In this document: positions 27,819 to 43,865 of the stretch, in pieces | Layout: each line of letters begins with the position of its first letter | How positions within the stretch are numbered: the first letter of the stretch is position 1 | Assembly: GCF_004634195.1 (NCBI RefSeq) | Contig: NZ_SKBP01000002.1 | Span: forward strand, 62,001-126,000 | Direction: 5' to 3' | DNA: 64,000 nucleotides | Source of the DNA: Flavobacterium salilacus subsp. salilacus | GTDB lineage: Bacteria > Bacteroidota > Bacteroidia > Flavobacteriales > Flavobacteriaceae | The notes under the pieces: generated by a model | Told to the model about the DNA's origin: nothing | What the model saw: the letters and a program-made list of their open reading frames with translations, nothing else | Databases searched by the model: none | Position numbers and translations under genes: made by a program

Positions 27819-28973
27819 TTACCATGTAAGTACACTGCCTCTTCCGTTACTATTGTTACTGCCTAAAATAAAGTTACATCCCGCAGGCTTTATCTTAAAA
27901 GTATAACCTTGATTTTTATGACACTCCATTATGGTAATAATTTCGCCAAACGAAAGCATCTCATTATCAAATATAACTTCTATTCTTTTTTTATGCGAAT
28001 TTTTAGCCGAAAATAACATTGTCTGTTTATATTCGGCCAATCGGATTACTTTTTTACCTGTAGTCTTTTCAAGATGTTCTTTTAAAGATTCTTCTTTAGA
28101 AAACAAAAGGTATTCTTCGGGCTGTATTACCACTGTTTTTTTATTCTTTTTTGCGATGACAAAAAATGACACACTTGTTTTCATAAACAAATCGAAGGCT
28201 GCCGATTTTTTAAAATGCTTACGGTAAAACTCCTGCATGGCATCGTTAAAGCGTTTCATATACGTTTTATCCCGAACGGTGCTTTCTCCCTTATAATGCA
28301 GTATTGAAGTTCCCGGATAATACATGTTCTTTTTACCTGCTTTCAATACAGTATAAGAAATATCTACATCTTCGCCATACATAAAGTAATCTTCATCAAA
28401 ACCGCCTACACTACGATAAAGCTCGCGTTCCATAAACATAAAAGCACCCGTTAATATATCAGTTTGTCCTGTTGTGTTCTCATCAAGATGCTGTGCATAA
28501 TACTTATTAAATAAGGAAAGTTTCGGAAACACTTTATATAACCCGGCTATTTTGCTCATAGCAACCCAAGGCGTAGGTGTACCGCGCTTGCTTTCGGGCA
28601 GGAAGTTTCCTGTACCGTCTATCATTTTTACACCTGTAATACCTAAATTTTGCTGTGTGGATACAAATGCGAACAGTTTATGAAAGGTTTCCTCGCCCAC
28701 CACAGTATCAGGATTTAGTATGCATACATACTTACCTTTTGCACGGGCAACACCTACGTTGTTACCAATGGGAAAGCCTGCATTTTCTTTTTGGGCTATA
28801 AGTTGTACATCAGGGAAGCGTTGCGCCATCATGGCACAACTATCGTCGGGGGAGTTATTATCTACAACTATAATTTCTCCGTCTATACCTTCAAGGGCTT
28901 TTTGTACACTAAGTACACATTGTTCTAAAAAATACCGGACGTTATAGTTAAGGATTATTACTGATAGTTGCAT
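27819..28973 (-). CDS. Family 2 glycosyltransferase (rhamnosyltransferase-like)
   Basis: A 384-residue GT-A enzyme starting directly with the beta-1 strand QLSVIILNYNVRYFL. It has IVVDNNSPDDS, the nucleotide-sugar site CILNPDTVVGEE (DxD-like NPD), and MYGEDVDISY near residue 200 (the ED acid pair). A further C-terminal domain (about 280-384) contains YLLFSKEESL and ends with a short Ser/Asn-rich tail. It is probably involved in surface polysaccharide. A -7 box ends only 5 nt before this ATG, so the mRNA may be leaderless. Confidence 0.85.
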   Translation of the reverse strand: MQLSVIILNYNVRYFLEQCVLSVQKALEGIDGEIIVVDNNSPDDSCAMMAQRFPDVQLIAQKENAGFPIGNNVGVARAKGKYVCILNPDTVVGEETFHKLFAFVSTQQNLGITGVKMIDGTGNFLPESKRGTPTPWVAMSKIAGLYKVFPKLSLFNKYYAQHLDENTTGQTDILTGAFMFMERELYRSVGGFDEDYFMYGEDVDISYTVLKAGKKNMYYPGTSILHYKGESTVRDKTYMKRFNDAMQEFYRKHFKKSAAFDLFMKTSVSFFVIAKKNKKTVVIQPEEYLLFSKEESLKEHLEKTTGKKVIRLAEYKQTMLFSAKNSHKKRIEVIFDNEMLSFGEIITIMECHKNQGYTFKIKPAGCNFILGSNNSNGRGSVLTW

Positions 28974-28977
28974 TGGG

Positions 28978-28985
28978 CAAATATA
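28978..28985 (-). promoter_or_regulatory. -7 box of glycosyltransferase promoter
   Basis: The minus strand reads TATATTTG. It ends five bases before the ATG at 28973, which leaves no room for a normal leader. Confidence 0.45.
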
Positions 28986-28989
28986 GTAT

Positions 28990-29295
28990 TTATAAGTATT
29001 TGAGTAAATAATTACTATCGCGACTATTATTATGGAAGAGTAAAATGTCTAACTTTTTACTATCTGTATGCAATTTATAATATAGTGTTGTTTGTTTTGA
29101 CATAACAAAACTATAAATATCTTTTGCTGTTATGCACCTACCTATCATGGGGGTTCTTTGAAGAATTGCTATAAAATTCTCAGTAAGATTGATGAATTTA
29201 ACAACCTCTTGTGTGTTCCACTTCAACAATATAAAGTTTAACTCATCATTATAGGAACTTTCGGCAAGCGTAGTCCAATGTACACTATACTCCAT
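28990..29295 (-). CDS. RelE/ParE-family toxin
   Basis: A 101-residue protein with the ParE/RelE fold pattern: an N-terminal strand and helix (YSVHWTTLAESSYNDELNFI), RTPMIGRCI in the middle, and a C-terminal beta sheet with TTLYYKLHTDSKKLDILLFHNN. Toxins of the superfamily cleave mRNA on the ribosome or inhibit gyrase; which applies here is not clear. Its start overlaps the antitoxin end by one base, the usual coupling for a toxin-antitoxin pair with antitoxin first. Confidence 0.82.
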   Translation of the reverse strand: MEYSVHWTTLAESSYNDELNFILLKWNTQEVVKFINLTENFIAILQRTPMIGRCITAKDIYSFVMSKQTTLYYKLHTDSKKLDILLFHNNSRDSNYLLKYL

Positions 29296-29528
29296 TAAGC
29301 AATATTATACTTTTTCTTTATCGCCATCATTACCTCTTCATGAGCTTTTACTTTACCGGAAGTACTTTGCTCTAAACTTATATCGATAGCTTGTTTTATT
29401 TCGGGGTTCAATTCATCCCAAGCATTTCTCTTTTCATCAAGAATAGCTTCAAGTCGGTATAAAACCTCATCCTCTTCTACTTTAAGGAGCTTCTCTATCA
29501 TTTTATATTTTCTTGATTCAATATCCAT
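29295..29528 (-). CDS. Antitoxin of a type II toxin-antitoxin pair
   Basis: A 77-residue acidic-helical protein (MDIESRKYKMIEKLL then EEDEVLYRLEAILDEK) with a C-terminal part (KVKAHEEVMMAIKKKYNIA) that fits toxin-wrapping antitoxins of the addiction-module family common in Bacteroidota. The frame is open to 29549, but a perfect TAnnTTTG box (29554-29547) overlaps that start, so the ATG at 29528 is used. It lies immediately upstream of the toxin. Confidence 0.8.
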   Translation of the reverse strand: MDIESRKYKMIEKLLKVEEDEVLYRLEAILDEKRNAWDELNPEIKQAIDISLEQSTSGKVKAHEEVMMAIKKKYNIA

Positions 29529-29546
29529 AATAGTATTAATTATTAT

Positions 29547-29554
29547 CAAATATA
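29547..29554 (-). promoter_or_regulatory. -7 box of toxin-antitoxin promoter
   Basis: The minus strand reads TATATTTG, a perfect match, 19 bases before the antitoxin ATG at 29528. No clear operator palindrome is seen next to it. Confidence 0.5.
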
Positions 29555-29576
29555 CGAAATATCATAAAGGAGTAAT

Positions 29577-29604
29577 AAAAAAGCACCCTTTTCAGGATGC
29601 TTTC
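29577..29604 (-). terminator. Intrinsic terminator after hsp20
   Basis: On the minus strand the stem is AAGCATCCT/AGGGTGCTT with a GAAA loop. It has one T-G wobble that would be a C-A mismatch in the opposite orientation, so it works best for the minus-strand hsp20 transcript. A T run follows. Confidence 0.82.
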
Positions 29605-29630
29605 TCTCAACTAACCAATTCAAATTATTA

Positions 29631-30068
29631 TTATGAAATCTCTATTAACCTTTTTGCTTTTGGTAATGCATCTTCTTTTTTAGGAAGCATTATTGTTAAA
29701 ATACCATCTTGGTATGAAGCATTGATGTCATCAGTGTTTACACTTTCAGGCAATGTAAATGCACGCTTGAATGAGGAGTAACTAAACTCTCTTCGGGTAA
29801 ACTTACCTTCTTCCTGCTCTGTTTTCTCGTTTTTAATTTCATAGGAAATAGTCAACAAGTCATTTTCCACCTCAATATTAAAGTCTTCCTTTTTAAATCC
29901 GGGAGCCATAAGTGCTACCGTAAAAGCGTTATCTGTTTCCTTAATATTTACAGGAGGTATCATTTTATTTACCATTTGCGAACCACCTGCCCAGTCCTTA
30001 AAAATTTCATCCATAATAGATGGAAATAAACCATTTACGTTGCTGTTGTTTCGTTTTACTAAGTTCAT
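29631..30068 (-). CDS. Small heat-shock protein (Hsp20/alpha-crystallin)
   Basis: A 145-residue ATP-independent chaperone that holds unfolding proteins. The alpha-crystallin domain spans about 38-130 (PPVNIKETDNAFTVALMAPGF at its start, split motif; SYQDGILTIMLPKKE near the end), with the I-x-I-like tail (KRLIEIS). It is divergent from the ABC-F gene at 30243, with a 174-base gap that holds repeated GACATAATG motifs, possibly operators. No TAnnTTTG box is found; a TTGACT with CAATAT 17 bases further is present on the minus strand near 30100. Confidence 0.92.
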   Translation of the reverse strand: MNLVKRNNSNVNGLFPSIMDEIFKDWAGGSQMVNKMIPPVNIKETDNAFTVALMAPGFKKEDFNIEVENDLLTISYEIKNEKTEQEEGKFTRREFSYSSFKRAFTLPESVNTDDINASYQDGILTIMLPKKEDALPKAKRLIEIS

Positions 30069-30150
30069 AATGCTATATTTTTTAATTAAACTTGAAATAT
30101 TGTTTTACGATTTACCAATAGTCAAGTTTTGTTCCAATCAAAAAAATACC

Positions 30151-30245
30151 GACATAATGACACTTTAAGCGACATAATGTCATTTACAGATAATAATTGT
30201 AAGTAATTATAAATAGCCTATTTTTGCAAAAAAAGCGACATAGTG
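30151..30245. promoter_or_regulatory. Three GACATAATG-type repeats between hsp20 and the ABC-F gene
   Basis: GACATAATG occurs at 30151-30159 and 30171-30179, exactly 20 bases (two helical turns) apart. The second copy is part of the 11-base palindrome GACATAATGTC (30171-30181). A third, imperfect copy, AGCGACATAGTG at 30234-30245, overlaps the ABC-F start region. They could be binding sites of a regulator of one or both divergent genes. The regulator is unknown. Confidence 0.4.
30197..30226 (+). promoter_or_regulatory. Promoter of the ABC-F gene
   Basis: TTG at 30197-30199, a 19-base spacer and TATTTTTG at 30219-30226. The GTG start follows at 30243. Confidence 0.65.
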
Positions 30246-32117
30246 AATTACCTTTCAGTAGAAAACATATCCAAATCTTTTGGCGAACGTACCCTTTTCG
30301 AAAATATATCCTTTGGTATTAATAAAGACCAAAAAGTAGCCTTTGTGGCAAAAAACGGTACAGGAAAAACCAGCATATTAAAAATAATAACAGGCGAAGA
30401 CATGCCCGATACCGGGCAGGTAGTGGTGCGCAAAGAGATAAAAATGGCTTTCCTGCCCCAAGAGCCTAACCTGAACCCGGAACTCTCGATTGAGGAAAGT
30501 ATTTTTGCTTCGGATAACGAGGTACTGAAAATTATTGAACAATACGAAAAAGCACTGGAAAACCCTGAGGATGAAGAAGTGTACCAAAAAGCTTTTGAGC
30601 GAATGGACATGCACAACGCCTGGGATTTTGAAACACAATACAAGCAAATACTATCCAAACTAAAGCTTGACGACCTGAAACTAAAGGTTAAAAGCCTTTC
30701 GGGCGGACAAAAAAAGCGTTTGGCACTGGCTATTATCCTGATTAATAAACCCGATTTATTAATACTGGATGAGCCTACCAACCACCTTGACCTTGAAATG
30801 ATAGAATGGCTGGAAAATTATTTTGCCAAAGAAAACATGACGCTGTTTATGGTTACGCACGACCGTTTTTTCTTAGAACGTGTGTGTAATGAGATAATAG
30901 AACTGGAAAACGGAAAACTCTATCAATATAAAGGCAACTACTCCTATTATCTTACCAAAAAAGAAGAACGTATTGCTGCCGAAAATGCGAGTATAGACAA
31001 AGCACAAAACCTGTTTGTAAAGGAACTGGCATGGATGCGCCGCCAACCCAAAGCGCGTACTACCAAGTCGAAATCTAGGCAGGATGATTTTTATGTTATT
31101 CAGGAAAAGGCCAACAGCCGCCGCAAGGAGCACCAAATTGAGCTGGAAATAAATATGGAGCGCATGGGCAGTAAAATTGTAGAACTGCACAACGTATCTA
31201 AAAAATTTAAGGAAAAAACTATACTCGACAATTTTAGTTTCAACTTTAAAAAAGGCGAACGCATAGGTATCATTGGTAAAAACGGAACAGGAAAATCGAC
31301 TTTCCTAAACTTACTTACCCAAACCATACCCCCGGATGGCGGTAAAGTAGTAGTAGGCGATACTATAAAAATAGGCTACTACACCCAAAGCGGTATAAAC
31401 CCGAAACCCGAACAAAAGGTTATTGATATTATTAAGGAATATGGCGAATATATACCCTTGGCAAAAGGCAGAATGATATCCGCAGGGCAATTGTTGGAAC
31501 GCTTTTTATTCGACCGCAAAAAACAATATGATTTTGTAGAAAAACTAAGCGGTGGTGAGCTAAAACGCTTGTACCTGTGTACGGTATTGATACAAAACCC
31601 AAATTTCCTGATACTGGATGAGCCTACCAACGATCTTGATATTGTAACCCTTAACGTACTGGAAAGTTTCCTGCTCGATTATCCGGGCTGCTTGCTGGTA
31701 GTAAGTCACGACAGGTATTTTATGGATAAAATTGTAGATCACCTGTTTATATTTCGGGGAGAAGGTGTTATTGAAGATTTTCCCGGCAACTACAGCGACT
31801 TCCGAACGTATGAAGACAGTAGCGAGCCTAACAAAGAAACACTAAAGCCCGCAGGAGATACTACCGCTAAAAAAACGTGGAAACAAAATAACACCAAAGC
31901 AGGTTTAAACTTTAACGAGCAGAAGGAATACAATAAAATTGAAAAAGAGATAAAAGACTTAGAGCGCGAAAAAGAAGCCATAGAAGCACTTTTTGCCGAA
32001 GGTAAAATTGCAGATGCCGATATTGCCAAAAAAGCGGAGGAACTGCAAGCGGTGCTAAACAAAATGGATGAAAAAACAGAACGCTGGTTTGAACTCAGTG
32101 CAAAACTGGAGGAATAA
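30243..32117 (+). CDS. ABC-F family ATPase, Uup-like
   Basis: A 624-residue protein with two ABC domains and no membrane segment. Domain 1 has Walker A AKNGTGKTS (36-44, where the usual G is A), LSGGQKKRLALA and LILDEPTNHLD; domain 2 has GKNGTGKST, LSGGELKRLYL and LILDEPTNDLD. A C-terminal coiled coil (about 555-624) resembles Uup. ABC-F proteins act on the ribosome or on DNA recombination intermediates; Uup is linked to ribosome assembly and tandem-repeat stability. The start is GTG. The downstream gene at 32128 is 10 bases away. Confidence 0.92.
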   Translation: MNYLSVENISKSFGERTLFENISFGINKDQKVAFVAKNGTGKTSILKIITGEDMPDTGQVVVRKEIKMAFLPQEPNLNPELSIEESIFASDNEVLKIIEQYEKALENPEDEEVYQKAFERMDMHNAWDFETQYKQILSKLKLDDLKLKVKSLSGGQKKRLALAIILINKPDLLILDEPTNHLDLEMIEWLENYFAKENMTLFMVTHDRFFLERVCNEIIELENGKLYQYKGNYSYYLTKKEERIAAENASIDKAQNLFVKELAWMRRQPKARTTKSKSRQDDFYVIQEKANSRRKEHQIELEINMERMGSKIVELHNVSKKFKEKTILDNFSFNFKKGERIGIIGKNGTGKSTFLNLLTQTIPPDGGKVVVGDTIKIGYYTQSGINPKPEQKVIDIIKEYGEYIPLAKGRMISAGQLLERFLFDRKKQYDFVEKLSGGELKRLYLCTVLIQNPNFLILDEPTNDLDIVTLNVLESFLLDYPGCLLVVSHDRYFMDKIVDHLFIFRGEGVIEDFPGNYSDFRTYEDSSEPNKETLKPAGDTTAKKTWKQNNTKAGLNFNEQKEYNKIEKEIKDLEREKEAIEALFAEGKIADADIAKKAEELQAVLNKMDEKTERWFELSAKLEE

Positions 32118-32127
32118 TTAATTGTTT

Positions 32128-32760
32128 ATGAGTGTACAGCCCTATATACAATTCCTTTGGAATTCTAAAAATGCACACAACGTGCACTCCCCTTTTGTAT
32201 ATGGTATTGTTACCAAATGTTTCCATAGAAGAATACCTCAGCTTTATACCAAAAAGAAAAATATTCCGGTAAAAAACCTGAACTTACAAAGCGTAAATAC
32301 ACTACACAAAATAGTCGTAGGGCTTAAACCTGCAAAACTATATGTATTGGGAGATAAAGCTGCCGAAATAACCGAAATATTACGAATTTCGGGTGAAGAA
32401 GCAAACACCCGACCTTGGTTTTTCTCCACATTAGCCCCTATACCCGGTGCTATTGATTTAGCATATATATCCGAAAAAGATACCGCATCACTCCTACCCT
32501 TACTGGAACAAATACTACCCAATGCAAATGGCAATACAGTATGTATTGTGGGCAACATCCACGCTACCGAAGCAATGGAAAAGGCTTGGAAAACGATAAA
32601 AGAAAACCCAAATGTTACCGTTACTGTTGATACGTGTCATTTAGGATTAATATTTTTCAGGCAAGGGCAGGCAAAACAACATTTTATCATACGTCCCTTT
32701 AAGAACAGAGTTATTGATGCCGTCTTAGGCATCCGTACCCTGTGGGGATTACTGGCTTAG
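32128..32760 (+). CDS. Degenerate SAM-methyltransferase-like protein
   Basis: A 210-residue protein related to Bacteroidota class I SAM methyltransferases by its ends: NAHNVHSPFVYGIVTKCF near residue 17 and EAMEKAWKTIKENPNVTVTV followed by LGLIFFRQGQAKQHF near the C-terminus. Where intact members have an ELGTSLG-type SAM loop and a DGNH motif, this protein has LGDKAAEITEIL and no DGNH, so it may not bind SAM. It could be a structural or divergent enzyme. The ATG at 32128 is used; an upstream TTG is at 32122. The stop shares four bases with the convergent gene at 32757. Confidence 0.65.
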   Translation: MSVQPYIQFLWNSKNAHNVHSPFVYGIVTKCFHRRIPQLYTKKKNIPVKNLNLQSVNTLHKIVVGLKPAKLYVLGDKAAEITEILRISGEEANTRPWFFSTLAPIPGAIDLAYISEKDTASLLPLLEQILPNANGNTVCIVGNIHATEAMEKAWKTIKENPNVTVTVDTCHLGLIFFRQGQAKQHFIIRPFKNRVIDAVLGIRTLWGLLA

Positions 32761-33011
32761 TTGTTTCGCAGTGCCTCAATCAGCTCCTGCTTATTCATTG
32801 CAGAGCGACCGCTTATACCCACTTTTTTAGCCTGTTCATACAAGTCCTGCTTAGTGCGCTCTTCATATTTAGAGGCTTTACCGCCCCGGTATCCGGAATC
32901 TTCGGTATTGGCTATACGTGCCGATTTTTCTTTGCTATAGCCCTTATCCCTAAGTGCTTCATACTGCTCCGGGTTTTTAACCCTCGAGTTTAATTTCTTT
33001 TCAGGTGCCAT
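32757..33011 (-). CDS. Small Rho-N-domain-like protein
   Basis: An 84-residue lysine-rich cytoplasmic protein. The C-terminal half, KQDLYEQAKKVGISGRSAMNKQELIEALRNN, resembles the Rho termination factor N-terminal (SAP-like) domain, which binds nucleic acid; the N-terminal half contains YEALRDKGYSKEKSARIAN, similar to plasmid-borne or stress-induced small proteins. The function is unknown. The stop overlaps that of the methyltransferase-like gene. Confidence 0.7.
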   Translation of the reverse strand: MAPEKKLNSRVKNPEQYEALRDKGYSKEKSARIANTEDSGYRGGKASKYEERTKQDLYEQAKKVGISGRSAMNKQELIEALRNN

Positions 33012-33089
33012 AATACAATATTTTATAGTTTAACACCCTTAAAGGTAGTAAACCTAACACAGTTAATGCGTTAAGCATCAGTTAAAAAC

Positions 33090-33126
33090 AAAGAAAGCTG
33101 CTCTTGTACAGAGCAGCCTTTCTTTA
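33090..33126 (-). terminator. Intrinsic terminator after the 33168 lipoprotein
   Basis: A stem built from GCTGCTCT/AGAGCAGC with a TGTAC loop, extended by AAAGAAA/TTTCTTT arms with one bulge. Confidence 0.85.
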
Positions 33127-33167
33127 TGCAAACTAATAATCAACCTTCAAAATTATTCTTTGCAATG

Positions 33168-33830
33168 TTATTCCGCAGCTTCTTTCGCTGCCTCATTCTC
33201 ATTACTTTTAGCGGTCATTCTTTCCCACTTAAACTGAGGAGCAAATTCTAACTTAAGACTGGCAATCTTACCATTATCTTCAGATGACAGACCTTCTTTT
33301 TCAACCGTGTTTTTTCTGGCATCAAGCGCTTCATACCAATTTTTTATTTTATCAAAATCCTCACGCGAATAATTGTCTTTATTAGCCTGGAAGGTGTTTA
33401 CAAAATTTTGGTAAACGCTAAGTATGTTATCCTTGTTTACCCAGGTAAAGTCCATATCGTCACCCACAGCATTGGCTTCGCCAAAGTAGCTCACATAAAG
33501 CGAATTTCCGCTTTCTTTATTAGCCATTTCAGAAATATTGGTTTTAAGTTCTTCATATTTCTGTTTCGTTTCGTTTATTCTCTCTTCGGCATTCGCTCTG
33601 TCTTCCAGGTTTTCTATAGCAGTTTCTGCCTCCGAAAGCCTTCTTTGGTATTGCGCATCGATAGCATCCCAGTTAAACATTTTTTCTTCGTCGTCAAGGC
33701 TATATACAGAATCGACATACGCCTCGTAACTATCTACATTCTTCTCGGCAGCCATTTCGGCGTCATGCTTACAAGATGTTAGTCCCGCTGCAATTATAGC
33801 AGCTCCCAACATTACATTTAATTTTTTCAT
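33168..33830 (-). CDS. Coiled-coil lipoprotein of unknown function
   Basis: A 220-residue lipoprotein: the signal peptide MKKLNVMLGAAIIAAGLTSC puts the lipid Cys at residue 20. The mature protein is very acidic and helical, with a coiled-coil region around 70-115 (RRLSEAETAIENLEDRANAE, split). It resembles uncharacterised Flavobacterium lipoproteins, perhaps DUF6565, but I am not certain. The frame is open to 33905; a promoter at 33895-33864 and the signal peptide favour 33830. It is a single-gene unit. Confidence 0.75.
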   Translation of the reverse strand: MKKLNVMLGAAIIAAGLTSCKHDAEMAAEKNVDSYEAYVDSVYSLDDEEKMFNWDAIDAQYQRRLSEAETAIENLEDRANAEERINETKQKYEELKTNISEMANKESGNSLYVSYFGEANAVGDDMDFTWVNKDNILSVYQNFVNTFQANKDNYSREDFDKIKNWYEALDARKNTVEKEGLSSEDNGKIASLKLEFAPQFKWERMTAKSNENEAAKEAAE

Positions 33831-33863
33831 AATGGATTTGTTTTTTATGTTACTTTGATGGGG

Positions 33864-33895
33864 TAAATGTAGTTTTGATTGTTTAAAACTCAAAA
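33864..33895 (-). promoter_or_regulatory. Promoter of the coiled-coil lipoprotein
   Basis: On the minus strand TTTTG (33895-33891), a 19-base spacer and TACATTTA (33871-33864), one mismatch from TAnnTTTG. Confidence 0.55.
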
Positions 33896-34067
33896 TATAA
33901 AGCAAAACATTAGTAATAATTTAGTATTTATAACTCAATATTAAGAATAATTAAGAATATATTAAGACAAACCACCGCAGCAAGAGGCATTTTATGTACA
34001 TAAAAGCCAAAACCATTTTTATAGGTTACTATAATTTTTTATACATTTAAAAACTTAATCAATATAC

Positions 34068-36824
34068 ATGGCACTTAGCTGGAACGAAATTAAAGACCGC
34101 GCGGTACGATTTGCTAAAGAATGGGAAAATGACTTTAACGAAAATGCCGAGGCAAAATCATTTATGGATGCTTTTTTCAACGTGTTCGGCATACCCCGCA
34201 GGCGCGTGGCAACCTTTGAGCAACACGTAAAAAAAGAAGACGGCAGGCAGGGCTTTATCGACCTGTTGTGGAAAGGCATTATACTCATCGAGTTTAAATC
34301 CAGAGGCAAAGACCTTGACAAAGCCCACAAACAGGCAAAAGACTATTTCCCGGCACTAAAGGATGCCGAACTGCCCCGCTACATACTCGTTTCCGATTTT
34401 GAAAATTTCAGGCTGTACGACCTGGAAGAAGATATAACTATAGAGTTTAAACTCGCCGATTTGGTACACAACGTGCAGCACTTCGGGTTTATAGCAGGCT
34501 ACCAAAAACAAGTATATAAAGAGCAAGACCCTGTAAATATAAAGGCTGCCGAGCTTATGGGCAGACTGCACGACAGGCTGGAAGAGATAGGCTACGAGGG
34601 GCATAACCTCGAAGTATATTTGGTACGGCTGCTGTTTTGCCTGTTTGCCGAAGACACCACCATATTTTTACGGCAGGAATTCCAGAACTATATAGAGCAG
34701 CGCACCAATGCCGACGGCAGCGACCTCGCCTCTAAGCTACAGGAACTTTTTCAGGTATTGAATACCCCGCCCGAAAAACGCTATAAAAACATCGATGAGC
34801 AACTCAACTCTTTCCCCTATGTAAACGGAAAACTGTTTGAAGAACCCCTTGCCATAGCGAGTTTTGACAGCAAAATGCGACAGGCGTTGCTGGATTGCTG
34901 CTATCTGGACTGGAGCCAGATATCGCCCGGCATATTCGGCTCCATGTTCCAGAGTGTCATGAACCCCGCAGAAAGGCGTAACCTTGGCGCGCACTACACC
35001 AGCGAAAAAAATATACTCAAACTCATAAAGCCTTTGTTTCTGGACGATTTATGGAAAGAGTTTGAAAGCATAAAAAGCAACAGTAAAAAACTGAACGAGT
35101 TTCACAAAAGGCTCAGTACCCTTACCTTTCTTGACCCTGCCTGCGGTTGCGGTAACTTTTTGGTAATTACCTACCGCGAGTTGCGCCTGCTGGAAATAGC
35201 CATACTGCGCGCCCTGAACAAAACAGGGCAGGGTTTCCTGGACGTGCGCGAAATAATATGGCTGGATGTGGATATGATGTATGGTATAGAGTATGAAGAG
35301 TTCCCCGCACGTATAGCCGAAGTGGCAATGTGGCTGATGGACCACCAAATGAATATGCTGATAAGCAACGAATTTGGGCAGTACTTTGCCCGCCTGCCGT
35401 TAAAAAAGGCTGCTACCATAGTACACGGCGATGCACTGGAAACCGACTGGGAAAGCGTTATTCCCAAAAACAAACTATCCTACATTATAGGTAACCCGCC
35501 ATTTATAGGGTCTAAAATAATGACGGCATACCAACGCAACCAAATAGCTACCGTTTTTGATAACGCAAAAGGAACGGGCGTAATGGACTACGTAACGGGT
35601 TGGTACATAAAAGCAGCTAAATACATACAAGGCACAAAAATAAAAGCAGCATTTGTATCAACCAACTCTATAGTACAGGGCGAGCAAACCGCCATACTGT
35701 GGGGGCAAATGTTTAACAAATACAATATAAAAATACATTTTGCCCACCGCACGTTTAAATGGAGTAACGAAGCACGGGGCAATGCAGCCGTATATTGTGT
35801 AATTATTGGTTTTGCTAATTATGACACCAACGATAAACTAATTTTTGAATACGAAGACATTAAAGGCGAAGCCCATGAGGTAAAAGCCAAAAATATTAAT
35901 GCCTATTTGGTAGATGCTAAAGAAGTATTGATTGAAAAAAGGTCTAAGCCATTATGTAATGTACCAAAAATGAGTTTTGGTAACATGCCTTTGGATGGTG
36001 GGCATTTATTATTGAGTGACGAAGAAAAAAATGAATTTATTACAAAAGAGCCTTTATCAGAAAAATATATAAAACCTTTAATTTCTGCTTCAGAATTTTT
36101 GAACGGTAAAAAAAGATGGTGTTTATGGCTTGTAAACAGTACCCCTTCAGAATTAAAAGCAATGCCCGAAGTTTTAAACCGTATAGAAGGTGTAAAGAAA
36201 TTTAGATTAGCAAGTGTAGCTCCATCCACTCAAAAATTTGCAGCTACACCTGCCTTATTCCGAGATAGAAACGAACCCGAAACTTATATTCTTGTACCAA
36301 GTACATCATCCGAAAACAGAACTTATATACCAATGGGCTATTTCTCAAACTATGAAATAGCAAATAATAGCTGTCATACGATACCCGGTGCAACCCTATA
36401 TCATTTTGGTATATTAACTTCTACCATGCACATGGCTTGGGTAAAAACAACTTGTGGAAGACTCGAAAGCCGTTTTAGGTACTCTAATGAGGTAGTATAT
36501 AACAACTACCCCTGGCCCGAAAATCCTTCGGATAAACAGGTTACAGCCATAGAAAAAGCAGCCCAAAAAGTACTGGATGTTCGGGCACAGTTCGCTGACA
36601 GTTCCCTTGCCGACCTGTACCACCCGCTAACCATGCCCCCTGCTTTGGTAAAGGCACACAACGACCTCGATAAAAAAGTTGACCTCGCCTATCGCCCGCA
36701 GCCCTTTACCGGCGAAGCAAAGCGTATGGAATACCTGTTTGAACTGTACGAAAAATATACCGCCGACCTGTTTACCAAAGAAAAACCCAAACGCGGAGGA
36801 AAAGGGAGTAGAATTAAGAATTAA
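34068..36824 (+). CDS. MmeI-like type IIG/IIL restriction-modification enzyme
   Basis: A 918-residue single-polypeptide restriction and modification enzyme. An N-terminal PD-(D/E)xK nuclease is visible (D65, E75, K77 in GFIDLLWKGIILIEFKS), then a helical linker, an adenine methyltransferase with motif I DPACGCGNF (356-364) and motif IV NPPF (476-479), a target-recognition domain (about 580-800) and a C-terminal helical part. Length and order equal MmeI (about 919 residues). It would methylate one strand of its own site and cut about 20 bases away. GC content drops within the target-recognition segment (see findings). It has no partner genes, as expected for this class. Confidence 0.9.
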   Translation: MALSWNEIKDRAVRFAKEWENDFNENAEAKSFMDAFFNVFGIPRRRVATFEQHVKKEDGRQGFIDLLWKGIILIEFKSRGKDLDKAHKQAKDYFPALKDAELPRYILVSDFENFRLYDLEEDITIEFKLADLVHNVQHFGFIAGYQKQVYKEQDPVNIKAAELMGRLHDRLEEIGYEGHNLEVYLVRLLFCLFAEDTTIFLRQEFQNYIEQRTNADGSDLASKLQELFQVLNTPPEKRYKNIDEQLNSFPYVNGKLFEEPLAIASFDSKMRQALLDCCYLDWSQISPGIFGSMFQSVMNPAERRNLGAHYTSEKNILKLIKPLFLDDLWKEFESIKSNSKKLNEFHKRLSTLTFLDPACGCGNFLVITYRELRLLEIAILRALNKTGQGFLDVREIIWLDVDMMYGIEYEEFPARIAEVAMWLMDHQMNMLISNEFGQYFARLPLKKAATIVHGDALETDWESVIPKNKLSYIIGNPPFIGSKIMTAYQRNQIATVFDNAKGTGVMDYVTGWYIKAAKYIQGTKIKAAFVSTNSIVQGEQTAILWGQMFNKYNIKIHFAHRTFKWSNEARGNAAVYCVIIGFANYDTNDKLIFEYEDIKGEAHEVKAKNINAYLVDAKEVLIEKRSKPLCNVPKMSFGNMPLDGGHLLLSDEEKNEFITKEPLSEKYIKPLISASEFLNGKKRWCLWLVNSTPSELKAMPEVLNRIEGVKKFRLASVAPSTQKFAATPALFRDRNEPETYILVPSTSSENRTYIPMGYFSNYEIANNSCHTIPGATLYHFGILTSTMHMAWVKTTCGRLESRFRYSNEVVYNNYPWPENPSDKQVTAIEKAAQKVLDVRAQFADSSLADLYHPLTMPPALVKAHNDLDKKVDLAYRPQPFTGEAKRMEYLFELYEKYTADLFTKEKPKRGGKGSRIKN

Positions 36825-36880
36825 GATTATAGAATGTAGATTTCAGAATTGAGATAATAGATAATGGATGATAGATGATA

Positions 36881-37006
36881 GACTGAATACTGCGACTGTA
36901 AACTGTCAACCGTAAACTGCAACTGTAAACTACAACTGTAAACTACAACTGTAAACTACAACTGTAAACTGTCAACCGTAAACTGCGACTGTAAACTGCG
37001 ACTGAA
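36881..37006 (+). repeat. Tandem ACTGTAAACT-type repeat tract
   Basis: Between the restriction enzyme and the ABC ATPase lie about nine short units of 12-14 bases, variants of CAACTGTAAACTA, ACTGTCAACCGTAA and ACTGCGACTGTAA. The central three are exact 13-base copies (around 36920-36960). A related sequence, AACTGAATACTGTCACTATAA, occurs at 48731. It is non-coding and its role is unknown. Confidence 0.8.
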
Positions 37007-37041
37007 AAAAAATCATTACTTTTAAGGCTCAAAATAAAGCT

Positions 37042-37764
37042 ATGGCACAACCAATAATAAATATAAAAGGCATAACACGCGATTTTCCGTTGGGTAATGA
37101 AATTGTTAAAGTACTCAAAGGAATAGACCTCACCATAAACAAAGGGGAATATGTAGCTCTTATGGGACCATCAGGTTCGGGTAAAAGTACATTAATGAAC
37201 CTTTTGGGCTGCCTTGATACAGCAACATCAGGGTCGTATATCCTTAACGGTAAAGATGTAAGCCAGATGAGCGATGATGAGCTTGCCGGCATCCGAAATA
37301 AAGAAATAGGTTTCGTATTCCAAACCTTCAACCTCCTGCCCCGCACTACCGCGCTGGATAATGTGGCATTACCCATGGTATATGCCGGCTATAAAAAACC
37401 CGAACGCAACGAGCGCGCTACCGAAGTATTGAAACAGGTGGGACTGGCAGACAGGATGGATCATAAACCCAACCAGCTATCGGGAGGGCAGCGCCAAAGG
37501 GTAGCCGTGGCGCGTGCCCTGGTAAACCGCCCCTCCATCATACTTGCTGATGAACCTACGGGTAATCTGGACAGTAAAACCTCGGTAGAGATTATGAACC
37601 TGTTTAATGAAATACATGCCAACGGCAACACTGTAATACTGGTAACCCACGAAGAGGATATTGCCAAGTACGCACACCGTGTCATCCGCCTGCGCGACGG
37701 TATTATTGAAAGTGATAGTAGCCCCCTTGCCCCCAAAGGGGGATTGACCACTGAAAATTTATAA
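37042..37764 (+). CDS. ABC transporter ATP-binding protein (LolD/MacB type)
   Basis: A 240-residue ATPase with Walker [10 protein letters not shown] (about 42-50), Q-loop [11 protein letters not shown], signature [15 protein letters not shown], Walker [12 protein letters not shown] and switch histidine VTHEED. This subfamily works with FtsX-like permeases in lipoprotein release or efflux. No permease is adjacent. The last 15 residues ([15 protein letters not shown]) are encoded by the REP-like element starting at 37720, so the ancestral end was probably near residue 225. TACTTTTA at 37017-37024 is a near -7 box. Confidence 0.9.
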
Positions 37765-37823
37765 ACCATAAAATATTCCCTCGGCATGAGCCCCCTCTCC
37801 TTTGGAGAGGGATGGGGAGAGGC
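37720..37823 (+). repeat. REP-like element spanning the ABC ATPase end
   Basis: The element contains CCCCCAAAGGGGG (37730-37742) and the perfect hairpin CCCTCTCC-TTT-GGAGAGGG (37793-37811), followed by ATGGGGAGAGGC. The same modules, in inverse orientation, occur at 51934-51993. Here about 45 bases, including the ATPase stop, separate the two hairpins. Confidence 0.8.
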
Positions 37824-37830
37824 ATTAGTT

Positions 37831-38403
37831 ATGAAAGTATATACCAAAACCGGCGATAAAGGAACAACAGCACTATTTGGCGGTACACGTGTGCCCAAGC
37901 ACCACCTGCGCATAGAGAGTTACGGTACTGTTGACGAGCTGAACTCGCACATAGGGCTTATTCGCGATCAGGAAATGAACCCAATGTATAAAAAAATATT
38001 AGAACGCATACAGGACAGGCTCTTTACTGTTGGAGCCATACTGGCAACACCTCCTGATAAAGAAATGCTGAAAAACGGAAAAGAAAGGCTTAACATCCCT
38101 AAAATCTCCGATGCGGATATTGAGCTTCTTGAAAATGAAATTGACAGTATGGACACAGCCTTACCACAAATGACGCATTTTGTGTTACCGGGCGGACATA
38201 CTACCGTGTCATATTGTCATATTGCGCGGTGTGTATGCCGCCGTGCAGAGCGTCTTGCAGTGCATTTAGATGAATTGGAGGGTATAGACAGCATGGTTTT
38301 GAAGTACCTGAACCGACTTTCTGACTACCTCTTTGTACTGGCACGGAAGTTGTCATATGACCTTAACGCAGAAGAGGTAAAATGGATACCCGAAAAGTAT
38401 TAA
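37831..38403 (+). CDS. Cob(I)yrinic acid a,c-diamide adenosyltransferase (PduO type)
   Basis: A 190-residue ATP:cobalamin adenosyltransferase that makes the 5'-deoxyadenosylcobalamin used by methylmalonyl-CoA mutase. The PduO-type N-terminus is KVYTKTGDKGTTALFGG, the fold is helical, and the conserved HFVLPGG and CHIARCVCRRAER (ATP-site arginines) are near 115-145. The ATG at 37831 is chosen; 15 codons upstream in frame come from the REP-like element. meaB at 47555 encodes another protein of the same cofactor pathway. Confidence 0.9.
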   Translation: MKVYTKTGDKGTTALFGGTRVPKHHLRIESYGTVDELNSHIGLIRDQEMNPMYKKILERIQDRLFTVGAILATPPDKEMLKNGKERLNIPKISDADIELLENEIDSMDTALPQMTHFVLPGGHTTVSYCHIARCVCRRAERLAVHLDELEGIDSMVLKYLNRLSDYLFVLARKLSYDLNAEEVKWIPEKY

Positions 38404-38514
38404 TTGTGCCCGCTCTACGCACTAATATTCAGGCTTTAAGCCTTAAATTTAGTACATATTTAGAGATACAGAATTACGTTCTTAACTTTTTTAATAAAAT
38501 AAACAAATTTTTGC

Positions 38515-38544
38515 TTGACATTTTCAGCAGAAAAATTATTTTTG
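38515..38544 (+). promoter_or_regulatory. Promoter of the DUF2795 gene
   Basis: TTG at 38515-38517 (TTGAC), a 19-base spacer and TATTTTTG at 38537-38544, with the ATG at 38568. Confidence 0.65.
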
Positions 38545-38567
38545 CATAAAATTAAACCTTTTAAAAG

Positions 38568-38789
38568 ATGTATTGGACATTAGAATTAGCATCCTATTTA
38601 AGCGATGCCCCATGGCCGGCTACAAAAGATGAACTTATAGATTATGCTATCAGGACAGGAGCACCTTTGGAGGTGGTAGAAAACCTTCAGTCTATTGAAG
38701 ATGAAGGCGAAATATATGAATCTATGGAAGAAATATGGCCGGATTATCCTACTGATGAAGATTATCTTTGGAATGAGGATGAATACTAG
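38568..38789 (+). CDS. DUF2795 small acidic protein
   Basis: A 73-residue protein containing the DUF2795 motif (TLELASYLSDAPWPATKDEL then LEVVENLQSI) and a very acidic C-terminal tail (SMEEIWPDYPTDEDYLWNEDEY, split at will). The family's function is not known. It has its own strong promoter and a terminator at 38808, which suggests an abundant small protein. Confidence 0.88.
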   Translation: MYWTLELASYLSDAPWPATKDELIDYAIRTGAPLEVVENLQSIEDEGEIYESMEEIWPDYPTDEDYLWNEDEY

Positions 38790-38807
38790 CAAAAAATAAA
38801 TTTCAAT

Positions 38808-38838
38808 TGAAAAGTCTCTTTCACGAGGCTTTTTTTTT
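38808..38838 (+). terminator. Intrinsic terminator after DUF2795
   Basis: A nine-pair stem AAAAGTCTC/GAGGCTTTT (one wobble), a six-base loop and about nine T. Confidence 0.86.
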
Positions 38839-38841
38839 GGT

Positions 38842-38849
38842 TAAATTTG
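38842..38849 (+). promoter_or_regulatory. -7 box of secA promoter
   Basis: TAAATTTG is perfect for TAnnTTTG; it lies right behind the DUF2795 terminator and 34 bases before the secA ATG. The -33 region would overlap the terminator T run. Confidence 0.5.
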
Positions 38850-38883
38850 TACACTTTCGAATAACATAAGTAATTATATAATA

Positions 38884-41800
38884 ATGAGTTTAATAAACAG
38901 CATACTTAAAGCTTTTGTAGGCGATAAATCTGAAAAAGATATCAAAGCCATACAGCCGCTCATCACAAAGATACAATCTTTTGAAGCAGCTTTGGCAGCA
39001 CTTTCTCATGATGAACTTAGAGCAAAGACTATCTTTTTCAAAGAAAAAATAAAAGAAGCGAGAGCCGAAAAAGATGCCAAAATAGCATCATATCTTGAAG
39101 AAATAGAAAAAACAGAAGATATTGATAAAAGAGAGGACATATATGCCTCTATTGATGCGCTCGAAAAAGAAGCGTATGATATTTCGGAAAAAGTATTAAT
39201 GGATATTCTTCCCGAAGCGTTTGCAGTTGTTAAAGAAACCGCCCGTCGCTTTAAGGAAAACACCCATATTACCGTTACCGCAACACCTTCTGACAGAGAG
39301 CTGTCGGCTACAAAATCGTATGTAACCATTGAGGGCGATAATGCCGTATGGGCAAACTCATGGGATGCGGCAGGTAAGGCAATTACCTGGGATATGATAC
39401 ACTATGACGTACAGCTTATAGGCGGTGTGGTACTGCACGAAGGCAAAATTGCCGAGATGCAAACAGGTGAGGGTAAAACACTGGTGGCTACCCTTCCGTT
39501 ATACCTAAACGCACTTACCGGTAATGGTGTGCACCTGGTAACCGTAAACGACTACCTTGCCCGAAGGGACAGCACATGGAAAGCACCCTTATTTGAGTTT
39601 CATGGTATGAGGGTTGACTGTATAGACAACCACCAGCCTAACTCGGATGCAAGAAGAAGAGCTTATGCTGCCGATATTACTTATGGTACAAACAACGAGT
39701 TTGGTTTTGACTACCTGAGGGATAATATGGCACACTCGCCGGATGATTTAGTACAACGCAAGCACAATTTTGCTATAGTAGATGAGGTCGATTCGGTATT
39801 AATTGATGATGCCCGTACACCACTTATCATATCAGGACCTGTACCACAGGGCGACCGCCACGAATTTAATGAGCTTAAGCCAAAAGTAGATCACTTAGTA
39901 AACCTGCAAAGAACCTTGCTTAACGGTGTACTTGCCGAAGCCAAAAAACTGATAAGGGAAGGTAATACCAAAGATGGCGGTTTTCTGCTCCTCAGAGTTC
40001 ACAGAGGATTACCAAAAAGCAAAGCACTGATAAAGTTCCTTAGTGAAGAAGGTGTAAAACAGATATTACAAAAAACCGAAAACCAGTACATGCAGGACAA
40101 CAACCGAGAAATGCATAAAGTGGATGAGGCGCTGTATTTTGTAATAGAAGAAAAAAACAATCAGGTAGAACTTACTGATAATGGTATCCAATTCCTTTCG
40201 CAGGATACCGATAAAGAGTTTTTTGTACTTCCTGATATTGGCACAGGGATAGCTAATATAGAAAAGCAAAATTTAGAAAAAGAAGAAGAGGCGGAACGTA
40301 AAGAAGAGCTTTTCAGGGACTTTGCCGTAAAAAGCGAGCGTATCCATACCCTTACACAATTATTAAAAGCCTACACCCTTTTTGAAAAGGATGTGGAATA
40401 TGTTATTGAGAATAACAAAATTATGATTGTGGATGAGCAAACGGGTCGTATTATGGACGGAAGGCGTTACTCTGACGGTCTTCACCAAGCAATTGAGGCT
40501 AAAGAGAATGTAAAAATTGAAGCCGCTACCCAAACCTTTGCAACCATTACACTGCAAAACTATTTCAGGATGTACAATAAACTTGCAGGTATGACAGGTA
40601 CTGCCATTACCGAAGCAGGTGAGTTTTGGGAAATATACAAACTTGATGTGGTAGAGATACCTACTAACCGACCTATTGCCCGAAAAGATGAACATGACCT
40701 GATATATAAAACTACCCGCGAAAAGTTTAATGCCGTTATTGAAGATGTTACTAAACTTTCGGCAGCAGGAAGACCGGTACTTATTGGTACAACATCAGTA
40801 GAAATATCGGAATTGCTGAGCCGAATGCTTAAAATGAGAAATGTAGCGCATAACGTGCTGAATGCAAAACTTCATAAAAGAGAAGCGGAGATTGTAGCCG
40901 AAGCCGGTAAACCGGGCATAGTAACCATAGCTACCAACATGGCAGGTCGTGGTACGGATATTAAACTCTCGAAAGAAGTTAAAGATGCCGGCGGTCTTGC
41001 CATTATAGGTACAGAACGCCACGATTCAAGACGTGTGGACAGACAGCTTCGCGGTCGTGCCGGACGTCAGGGAGATCCGGGAAGTTCGCAGTTCTATGTA
41101 TCGCTCGAAGATAACCTTATGCGCCTATTTGGTTCTGAAAGGGTTGCTAAGGTTATGGACAGAATGGGACTTAAAGAAGGTGAGGTTATACAACACTCTA
41201 TGATGACAAAATCGATAGAGCGTGCACAGAAAAAAGTGGAAGAAAACAACTTTGGAGTACGTAAAAGACTATTGGAGTATGACGATGTTATGAACGCGCA
41301 ACGTGAGGTAGTATATAAACGCAGACGACACGCATTGCGTGGTGAACGTCTTAAAGTGGATATTGCCAACATGATGTATGATACTGCAGAGGAAATTGTA
41401 GTATCGAATAAAGAAATTAACGATTACAAGAATTTTGAATTCGAAATCATCCGTTATTTCTCTATAAGCGCTCCTGTCAGCGAAGCAGATTTTTCAAAAA
41501 TGTCTGAAAAAGATATTACTGCAAAAGTATATAAAGCTGTAATGGAGGCGTATCATGAAAAAAATGAACGTGATGCTTCGGAAGCTTTCCCCGTTGTTAA
41601 AAATGTTTATGAAGATAAAAACTCGCAATACGAGCGCATTGTAGTACCATTTACCGATGGTATAAAAACGCTGAATGTGGTTACCAATCTTGAAAAAGCA
41701 TACCAAACACAAGGAAAATCGCTGATTGCTGATTTTGAAAAGAATATAACACTTGCTATTGTTGACGAAGCGTGGAAGAAACACCTCCGTAAAATGGATG

Positions 41801-42246
41801 AGTTAAAACAATCAGTACAGCTTGCCGTACACGAACAAAAAGATCCTTTGCTTATTTATAAGTTTGAAGCCTTTAACCTGTTTAAGAAAACCGTAAACGG
41901 TATTAATAAAGATGTAGTTTCGTTCCTGTTTAAAGGAGACCTGCCATCGCATAACGTTAGTAACATACAAGAAGCAAAACAGGTAAAACAAAAAGAAGAT
42001 TATAAGACCAGTAAAGAAGATGTTTTAAATACGGATGAAATGGCTGCTCAGGCTCGCGAGGTATCGCAACAAAGCCAAAGTAACAGACCACAGGTAACTG
42101 AAACCATCGTTAGAGAAACTCCTAAAATAAACCGCAATGATACCGTTACTATTAAGCATGTAATGAGTGGTAAAACGGAAAACATGAAGTTTAAGAAAGC
42201 AGAAAGTATGCTTGCAACGGGAGAATGGATTATAGTTAACGAATAA
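38884..42246 (+). CDS. secA: Preprotein translocase ATPase SecA
   Basis: The motor of the Sec translocon. The 1120-residue protein is about 220 residues longer than E. coli SecA, mainly by an N-terminal extension and an insertion before Walker A (TGEGKT at 194-199) and by an insertion in the first nucleotide-binding domain, as usual in Bacteroidota. Other motifs: [36 protein letters not shown] and [16 protein letters not shown]. The C-terminus ([17 protein letters not shown]) has no CxCx8CH zinc motif. A monocistronic gene; a terminator follows. Confidence 0.97.
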
Positions 42247-42267
42247 ACTTTATATTGTTACGATTAT

Positions 42268-42298
42268 ACAAAATCCCCATAGTAAATGGGGATTTTGT
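42268..42298 (+). terminator. Intrinsic terminator after secA
   Basis: A 12-pair stem ACAAAATCCCCA/TGGGGATTTTGT with a seven-base loop and a T-rich tail. Confidence 0.85.
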
Positions 42299-42391
42299 AT
42301 TTATACTTTTTGATAATTTTTTGCACGATATGTTAATTAAAATTAAGTACGTGCTATTATCACTACCTTACATGAACATAAATAAAGTAAA

Positions 42392-42505
42392 ATGTCAAAA
42401 AGCCTCGACCCAAAAAAAAGCAGTAAAAAAGTCCCTTTAAAGACTGCCAAAGAGAAAAAAGAAGAAAAACGGGACAAAAAAAATAATAAAAAAGATTTTA
42501 GTTAA
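42392..42505 (+). CDS. Tiny lysine-rich protein (37 residues)
   Basis: An ATG-to-TAA frame encoding MSKSLDPKKSSKKVPLKT followed by a KEKKEEKRDKK repeat and KKDFS. About 45% of residues are Lys or Arg and the region is free of stops only in this frame. I recall similar short proteins with the VPLKTA(A/K)EK motif in Bacteroidota. It lies between the secA terminator and a hairpin at 42513. Probably nucleic-acid or ribosome associated, by composition only. Confidence 0.6.
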   Translation: MSKSLDPKKSSKKVPLKTAKEKKEEKRDKKNNKKDFS

Positions 42506-42512
42506 TCTTAAA

Positions 42513-42539
42513 AAAAGCTTCTTATACAAGGAGCTTTTA
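42513..42539 (+). terminator. Hairpin after the tiny lysine-rich gene
   Basis: Arms AAAAGCTTC/GGAGCTTTT with a loop of seven to eight bases; the T run is short, so the call is weaker. Confidence 0.6.
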
Positions 42540-42623
42540 ACATAATAGCTGCCTGCTGCTGTACAAAATTATCTTCCTTTTTTTAGTAATTTTATCCCAA
42601 TTTAAAAGCTGCTTCACCACCCT

Positions 42624-43865
42624 ATGGAATTGTATTACTCGCTATCTGTAATGATTGTTATAGCATCGTTTTTCGCTTACCTGAATGTGCGCTTCCTCAA
42701 GCTGCCCTCTACCATAGGCGTTATGATTATTGCAATGGCAGCCTCTATAGTACTGGTTACCTTTGGCAGTTCTATACCCAATATAGAAAACCGTGTTTCA
42801 GCATTACTTCATAGTTTTGATTTTACGGAAGTATTGATGGGGGCTATGCTTAACTTTATGCTTTTTGCCGGAGCCATACATATTAACCTGCGCGACCTTA
42901 ACGAACAGCGTACACCCATAATGACCTTTTCTACCGTAAGCGTTATTATATCAACTTTGGTGGTGGGTACACTGGTCTATTTTATACCCATGCCGGGGCT
43001 AGAAATACCTTATATATACTGCCTGCTCTTCGGGGCTTTAATATCGCCTACCGACCCTGTTGCGGTACTCAGCATACTTAAAGGCGCAAAAGTCAGAAAA
43101 TCGCTGGAAACAAAAATAGCAGGCGAGTCGCTTTTTAACGACGGTATGGCGGTTGTGGTATTTGCGGTAATATTACAGCTCGCCGAAAATGAAAATGCGA
43201 GCTTCAATATTTTTAATATAATATGGCTGTTTATAAAAGAAGCCGGCGGCGGTTTCGTTCTGGGTGTTATACTGGGTGTAACAGCCTCTAAAGCCATGCG
43301 AAAAATAGATGATTATAAAGTATCGGTACTCATCACGCTGGCAGTAGTTATGGGAGGCTATCTTATTGCCCATGCTTTGCATGTATCAGGACCGCTTACT
43401 ATGGTATTTGCCGGTCTTATTATTGGTAATTTCAACAGAAAGTCTTCGAATATGTCTTCTACTACCAAAGATTACTTAGATAAATTTTGGGAATTGAATG
43501 ATGAAATATTAAATGCTATTCTTTTCCTTTTCATAGGACTCGACCTTTTGCTGATACCCGACCTTAATGCCTACTGGATTCCCGGTATTGCCAGTATTGT
43601 AATAGTACTTGCTTCCCGCTTTATTTCGATATGGCTTCCCGGAAAATTTATTAAGCTGAAAGAACGGTTTGGTCCCGGCACCATTAAAATACTGGTTTGG
43701 GGTGGCTTGCGTGGCGGGGTATCTATCGCACTGGCATTATCTATAGCCGATAGTCCTTATACTAAAACTATTGTAGCGATAACCTATTTTGTAGTAGTGT
43801 TTTCTATTATTGTACAGGGACTTACCATAGGCAGGGTTGCCAACAAAGTATTGGAAACTAAATAA
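42624..43865 (+). CDS. Na+/H+ antiporter (NhaP/CPA1-like)
   Basis: A 413-residue inner-membrane protein with about 12 hydrophobic segments that exchanges Na+ (or K+) for protons. CPA1 motifs are seen: SPTDPVAVLSIL near residue 140, SLFNDGMAVVVF (ND pair) near 170, and the GLRGGVSIALALS motif near 370. There is no C-terminal regulatory domain. TAATTTTA (42587-42594) is a near -7 box. Its stop overlaps the convergent FAD-oxidase stop by eight bases. Confidence 0.9.
   Translation: MELYYSLSVMIVIASFFAYLNVRFLKLPSTIGVMIIAMAASIVLVTFGSSIPNIENRVSALLHSFDFTEVLMGAMLNFMLFAGAIHINLRDLNEQRTPIMTFSTVSVIISTLVVGTLVYFIPMPGLEIPYIYCLLFGALISPTDPVAVLSILKGAKVRKSLETKIAGESLFNDGMAVVVFAVILQLAENENASFNIFNIIWLFIKEAGGGFVLGVILGVTASKAMRKIDDYKVSVLITLAVVMGGYLIAHALHVSGPLTMVFAGLIIGNFNRKSSNMSSTTKDYLDKFWELNDEILNAILFLFIGLDLLLIPDLNAYWIPGIASIVIVLASRFISIWLPGKFIKLKERFGPGTIKILVWGGLRGGVSIALALSIADSPYTKTIVAITYFVVVFSIIVQGLTIGRVANKVLETK

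Follow-up and report, generated by a model that had tools for sequence, protein, structure and literature searches.

An MmeI-family Type IIL restriction-modification enzyme in Flavobacterium salilacus and the probable exchange of its specificity module among relatives

A gene of Flavobacterium salilacus subsp. salilacus encodes a complete single-chain Type IIL restriction-modification enzyme of the MmeI family. On a reading that we hold to be probable as a whole, it was acquired as a single gene, the module containing its target-recognition domain (TRD) is of a kind exchanged among relatives, and the AT-rich tract inside the gene is the usual composition of this module, set on an unusually GC-rich backbone. 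Coordinates given without a locus name refer to the window, the whole stretch of 64,000 nucleotides that was analysed (contig NZ_SKBP01000002.1, positions 62,001 to 126,000).

The enzyme and its genomic setting

The five Pfam domains MmeI_N, MmeI_hel, MmeI_Mtase, MmeI_TRD and MmeI_C occur in that order, each above its curated cut-off, and residues 1-913 align with the solved MmeI (PDB 5hr4), which bears out the MmeI-like identity proposed in the initial annotation. The PADLOC Type IIG model covers residues 2-899. Nuclease, spacer, adenine methyltransferase, TRD and C-terminal domain follow one another in a single chain, the arrangement that defines Type IIL (Table 1). LDPACGCGNF is taken to be the SAM-binding motif, and NPPF is presumably the catalytic motif of the adenine methyltransferase. 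Both motifs and the nuclease residues are intact, as in Type IIL enzymes generally. MmeI-family Type IIL enzymes methylate one strand and cut about 20/18 downstream without a partner methyltransferase, and none was seen by eye among the ORFs at 28000-44000. In MmeI the nuclease residues are D70, E80 and K82, according to the available part of the structural report (PMC4833311). Judged by its domains and residues, the enzyme is a fresh member of the known MmeI family. It is the sole match in its own genome at E 0.001; at the same threshold 43 of 199 genus genomes (its own included) hold some match, many of these being weak or partial.

Table 1. Features of the enzyme gene and its 3' neighbourhood (positions in the window)
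Feature	Position	Strand	Basis or remark
MmeI-family Type IIL restriction-modification enzyme	34068..36824	+	918 aa ORF; Pfam, PADLOC, 5hr4 alignment
PD-(D/E)xK nuclease residues D65, E75, K77	34260..34298	+	aligned with MmeI D70, E80, K82
LDPACGCGNF, codons 355-364	35130..35159	+	aligned with MmeI
NPPF, codons 476-479	35493..35504	+	at the longer 5' exchange boundary (breakpoint clusters)
Counterpart of the module swapped among relatives (codons ~481 to ~820)	35508..36527	+	breakpoints in near-identical pairs
AT-rich tract by synonymous third positions, codons 572-798	35781..36461	+	best-segment likelihood
TRD-N, codons 613-739	35904..36284	+	borders carried over from MmeI 621-745 as given in the available part of PMC4833311, rounded
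TRD-C, codons 740-818	36285..36521	+	MmeI alignment; available part of PMC4833311
Tandem array, 13-base units, 9.1 copies, 88% matches	36889..37008	+	between enzyme and ABC transporter genes

Near relatives were located through the adjoining lolD-pduO DNA, and nine surrounding stretches were compared. The row hsp20-abcF-smr-rho-scp-lolD-pduO-secA lacks the enzyme in all four stretches that hold both scp and lolD (G130, G024, G087, G033); in G085 smr directly precedes lolD, without rho and scp, and in the remaining four scp is not present within the stretch. Because the conserved row occurs in relatives without the enzyme gene, the latter looks like a single-gene insertion into it. The same four relatives carry a small ORF at the scp-lolD junction, two of them with additional ORFs, and the inserted enzyme gene may have replaced it; in the enzyme's own genome the best match to this ORF is a 51% relative on another contig (L206). 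By eye, the junction ORF encodes a secreted protein (L131 9550-10068, L135 9752-10267 and L136 9111-9632, all on the minus strand; L134 6444-7094, plus strand). The 13-base tandem array sits at the edge of the insertion, and the stop codon of the enzyme gene is overlapped by another short repeat (36808-36861). Further upstream, two small ORFs of 101 and 84 aa lie end-to-start at 28990-29549 on the minus strand and by eye resemble a toxin-antitoxin pair. The best relatives of the enzyme reach about 60% on plasmids, 50% in phages and 56% on viral contigs (the last in a pattern-based scan), and thus a recent mobile vehicle was not seen.

Base composition of the gene and of its homologues

The hand counts on which attention first fell are exact on recount, with 92 G+C in 300 bases at 35881-36180, 62 in 120 at 35101-35220 and 63 in 120 at 36541-36660. 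A low GC level was dropped as evidence on its own, since 4364 of the 63701 overlapping 300-base windows of the 64 kb have at most 92 G+C. More unusual is the contrast within one gene. Such dips were compared in 30 ORFs of at least 600 codons, among them the enzyme gene, taken from the window and from 18 stretches sampled from the same genome. The enzyme gene has the largest dip (GC -0.146, GC3 -0.31), the runner-up values being -0.136 for GC, which is close, and -0.19 for GC3. At synonymous third positions GC3s is 0.202 inside the AT-rich tract and 0.513 outside, with a log-likelihood gain of 34.3 that none of 200 codon permutations matched (maximum 11.2); within 2 log units the tract starts at codons 462-579 and ends at 794-843. 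It exceeds the 300 bases originally pointed out and may begin inside the methyltransferase domain. It covers the TRD, so the coincidence of the low-GC part with the TRD, claimed at the outset, holds.

The host reference consists of 139 ORFs of at least 200 codons (the enzyme gene included) from the window and the 18 sampled stretches, with a mean GC3 of 0.346 and an SD of 0.068. GC3 at codons 605-818 of the enzyme gene is 0.257, with 16 of the 139 ORFs lower, and outside the TRD it is 0.517, above 138 of them. Against its own genome, the odd part of the gene is the GC-rich backbone, while the TRD lies within range. These values, as well as the insertion of a single gene, favour the somewhat unlikely explanation that the gene in its entirety originated in a GC-richer host, whose signature its backbone still carries. 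Whole-gene transfer alone, however, does not explain the AT-rich TRD, and a close GC-rich donor was not seen: by the same measure, backbone GC3 is 0.25-0.45 in the 11 relatives checked and 0.58 in the F. salilacus gene.

The first set of homologues was drawn from 106 loci, of which 5 shorter than 851 codons, the self copy and 3 duplicates were left out, giving 97; comparisons were made on the 82 of these with a backbone identity above 0.5. A later set added 47 further loci (8 too short and 3 identical ones skipped), giving 135 rows that include the F. salilacus gene and the partial L085. GC3 of the TRD is below that of the backbone in 78 of the 82 homologues. When codon families are matched, 79 of 82 homologues have lower odds of GC-ending codons in the TRD than in the backbone; the value for the F. 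salilacus gene, 0.20, is below all 82. In the wider sample of 118 homologues with a backbone identity above 0.55, for which the backbone was defined more narrowly, these synonymous odds (TRD versus backbone) are below 1 in 114, and the value of 0.18 for the F. salilacus gene is the fourth strongest of 119. The 67 homologues with at least 2.4 kb of adjoining ORFs have a TRD that is AT-richer than those ORFs in 61 cases and a backbone that is GC-richer in 44. Across the family, therefore, the TRD is as a rule poorer in GC than the gene that carries it, and the F. salilacus gene stands at the extreme of a general trend. The dip also spans the conserved codons 551-600; L065, L080 and L063 have hardly any dip, so the composition is not obligatory.

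Exchange of the TRD among relatives

In 74 pairs of homologues at least 90% identical over codons 160-470, a set in which the 49 rows are shared among pairs, the median identity is 0.91 for the nuclease (71 pairs), 0.46 for TRD-N, 0.67 for TRD-C and 0.87 for the C-terminal domain. When each row is used once, 27 non-overlapping pairs with a backbone identity of at least 88% remain (L031-L173 being probably the same genome twice), and an identity more than 0.25 below that of the backbone is found in 20 (TRD-N), 16 (TRD-C) and 1 (C-terminal domain) of these 27, and in 0 of the 26 pairs with a measurable nuclease. The initial annotation had proposed that the specificity module was replaced by recombination while the nuclease and methylase were kept. 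As a process among relatives this is well supported by the pairwise identities; as a recent event in the F. salilacus gene it is not shown, there being no identity step against L002, L159 and L085.

Individual pairs illustrate the borders. In L045-L056 nucleotide identity drops from 0.83-0.97 in the codons up to 480 to 0.54-0.73 between codons 480 and 800, and L018-L087 displays the reverse, with 0.94-0.98 over module codons 481-780, mostly above its flanks (0.74-0.94). In the 61 pairs with a backbone at least 0.86 and a TRD at most 0.65 identical, whose rows are again shared among pairs, the best identity segment starts at codons 452-482 in 23 and at 597-650 in 27, this segment being the high-identity one in 3 of 61; a shorter version of the exchanged module would thus start near codon 620. 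A low-GC3 segment exceeds a self-set, uncalibrated threshold in 50 of the 82 homologues, starting in codons 455-491 in 24 of the 50 and ending in 799-813 in 26, and 29 of the 82 have no GC3 segment above that threshold. Of 15 pairs compared for the DNA beside the gene, over at most 3.5 kb and in several cases far less, 3 matched (L083-L086 and L024-L026 over about 100 bases; L018-L087 over about 1500), and therefore in-place replacement at one locus is not demonstrated. Some 40-54 extra residues are present between codons 456 and 486 in 30 of the 135 aligned homologues, which are about 950-990 aa long (e.g., L017, L024, L179); this insert adjoins NPPF and the longer 5' exchange border.

Changes in half of the TRD were also found. 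At backbone identities of at least 0.90, TRD-N differs far more than TRD-C, the more conserved half of the TRD, in L043-L068, L083-L086 and L198-L199. The opposite change was found in one pair, L003-L085, with identities of 0.98 over codons 160-480, 0.90 in TRD-N and 0.69 over codons 740-800; its nucleotide identity has a minimum at codons 721-780, yet is reduced already from codon 451. A screen for half-TRD changes returned 13 pairs in which TRD-C is 0.80 or more identical while TRD-N is 0.62 or less, and none of the converse kind. In a tentative extension, given slightly less than even odds, Type IIL enzymes of Bacteroidota would share a pool of AT-rich specificity cassettes, with borders recurring at NPPF, at the TRD start and at the TRD end, in which TRD-N (site positions 1-2) and TRD-C (positions 3-6) also move independently, so that new sites would arise by combination and not only by point changes. 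It is rated no higher because change confined mainly to TRD-C comes from the one pair L003-L085, the screen having given no such pair. In L083 (G187) an in-frame TAA is reported in the matched stretch; its ORF has 908 codons, so this stop lies at the extreme C-terminus. Among the titles and abstract openings of freely readable papers that were covered, none was noticed in which single-chain Type IIL enzymes exchange whole or half TRDs in nature; this is not a claim that such exchange is unpublished.

Among relatives with the TRD type of the F. salilacus gene, L002 and L159 have the same 13 contact residues, and L085 differs solely at the two residues of position 6. Identity to these three is 0.71-0.84 throughout codons 160-900: 0.83-0.84 over codons 160-470, 0.75-0.77 over codons 613-818 and 0.71-0.76 in the C-terminal domain, with 0.69 in the nuclease domain for L002 and L159 (L085 is incomplete there). 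The TRD is thus 6-9 points under codons 160-470, but not under the C-terminal domain, and above the nuclease. The initial annotation held that close homologues having the same dip with even identity would speak against recent exchange; the three relatives do show no identity step, but their dips are small, because their backbones are AT-rich too. By contrast, the flanks of the gene match L013 and L179 far better than its centre does (codons 160-470, 0.84 and 0.86; TRD-N, 0.44 and 0.36). The best identities among the homologues listed are about 80% overall and 86% over codons 160-470, too distant for an event to be dated.

In the TRD tree, the gene falls into a clade of eight with L002, L007, L008, L009, L010, L016 and L085 (support 100), whereas in the backbone tree it groups with L004, L013, L024 and L026 (support 80), all of which have other TRDs. 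In AU tests of clades named after inspection of the trees, the backbone strongly rejects the eight TRD mates as one group (p 1.3e-21) and the TRD rejects the five backbone neighbours as one (p 4e-77), while a smaller backbone group of the gene, L002 and L085 withstands the test at the 5% level (p 0.059). The eight TRD-clade genes need 8 changes on the backbone tree, a count that leans on weak branches because this quickly built tree leaves 22 of its 52 inner branches unresolved. L159 has a backbone 0.96 identical to that of L011, with a TRD-N identity of 0.56 between them. The trees and the L159-L011 pair indicate that this TRD type has moved between backbones; the trees also weakly indicate exchange in the lineage of the F. 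salilacus gene itself, whose present TRD type was probably acquired by exchange at some time. Against 17 relatives, third-base identity lies near chance in the TRD, exceeding it by at most 0.09, and is also low in the backbone, with an excess of at most 0.17; synonymous sites are near saturation and do not allow the exchange to be dated. The nuclease domain (codons 1-150, 34068-34517) is nearest to L013 (0.84), L004 (0.80) and L005 (0.76), not to the TRD mates, a hint that the N-terminal domains may have a history of their own.

A recent replacement, in which an AT-rich donor gave its TRD module to a GC-rich backbone in the recent ancestry of the strain, is unlikely. The synonymous contrast, stronger than in all 82 homologues (fourth of 119 under the other backbone definition), the sharp compositional step, compatible with the module borders, and the quite different TRDs of L013 and L179, which are among the nearest backbone relatives, are what such an event would leave. 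The dip is nevertheless family-wide, relatives of the same TRD type show no identity step at the TRD, and no relative closer than about 80% was listed among the best 80 of 285 matches kept from pattern-based scanning of 84,980 species genomes, or in 398 genus genomes. The even identity with L002 and L085 was withdrawn as proof against recent exchange, as the trees scatter that TRD type over backbones. Distinctly unlikely is an AT-richness imposed by selection on codons, mRNA or amino acids and unrelated to exchange, which would suit a nearly universal dip extending over conserved codons 551-600, but the dip survives codon-family matching, is nearly missing from L065, L080 and L063, and has its edges where identity breakpoints cluster, although conserved blocks could attract both.

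The preferred reading is that of a module which moves among relatives and is normally AT-rich. The single chain would comprise an N-terminal nuclease, a helical spacer, an adenine methyltransferase and a two-part TRD steering both activities; by analogy with MmeI, it would methylate one adenine in an asymmetric site of about 6 bp and cut unmethylated sites about 20 bases downstream. The enzyme would have entered a conserved gene row as one gene, and the segment swapped between backbones would be either the TRD by itself or the TRD plus the 3' portion of the methyltransferase domain. The borders fall on conserved blocks, one around NPPF, one ahead of the TRD and one around RLESRFRYS/NNYPWP, which makes homologous recombination the likely route. 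The AT-rich tract would be the normal composition of the module, made conspicuous by the unusually GC-rich backbone.

Predicted specificity and comparison with known systems

Thirteen contact residues can be read from the MmeI alignment, and the gene has the co-varying base-contact residues of Type IIL enzymes. TRD-N contributes A718, R732 and D733 (position 1) and F637 and M640 (position 2); TRD-C contributes S745 and N767 (3), S768 and R804 (4), T746 and L799 (5) and E800 and R802 (6). In the available part of PMC4833311, similar residue combinations are described for positions 2, 5, 6 and partly 4, not for 1 and 3. In MmeI numbering, F/M at 642/645 is found in enzymes reading A at position 2 (PMC4833311, same part). 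By analogy with that account, T752/L805 are consistent with a methylated A at position 5 and E806/R808 with C at position 6; for position 4, R810 together with S774 points to R (or G). G at position 1 is weakly suggested by R737, weakly because A723 is not the residue described there for G. For S751/N773, C or Y at position 3 would follow from N773. The tentative target site is GA(Y)RAC. L085, with K/D at MmeI positions 806/808, should by the same analogy read G at position 6.

The F. salilacus gene by itself is of modest significance. In Type IIL enzymes, one TRD sets both cutting and protection, so that one exchange can yield a new self-consistent restriction system. The relatives reveal natural joining borders for specificity modules, perhaps for half modules, which would be useful to enzyme engineers.

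MmeI (PDB 5hr4) shares with the enzyme the five Pfam domains and the nuclease, SAM and NPPF residues, and the contacts A723, T752, N773, L805, E806, R808 and R810 are equal. The enzyme differs in having F/M for Y642/K645, R/D for F737/Y738, S for E751 and S for A774, and a different site is therefore expected; its nuclease domain is also 5 residues shorter. In Type I and two-subunit Type IIG systems of Helicobacter pylori, specificity likewise shifts through recombination of TRDs at conserved flanks, but there the TRDs are carried by a separate S subunit, which has repeats and two TRD slots, as described in the available parts of PMC3077401 and PMC3983042. In the family studied here, by contrast, homologous single-chain enzymes, each with one TRD, would swap all or part of that domain. 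In the H. pylori Type IIG enzymes JHP1272/HP1353-1354, part of an MmeI-like TRD is also a separable specificity unit; there, according to the available part of PMC3936762, a small TRD-like domain is added at the C-terminus, whereas in the relatives of the F. salilacus enzyme a piece appears to be replaced by another version.
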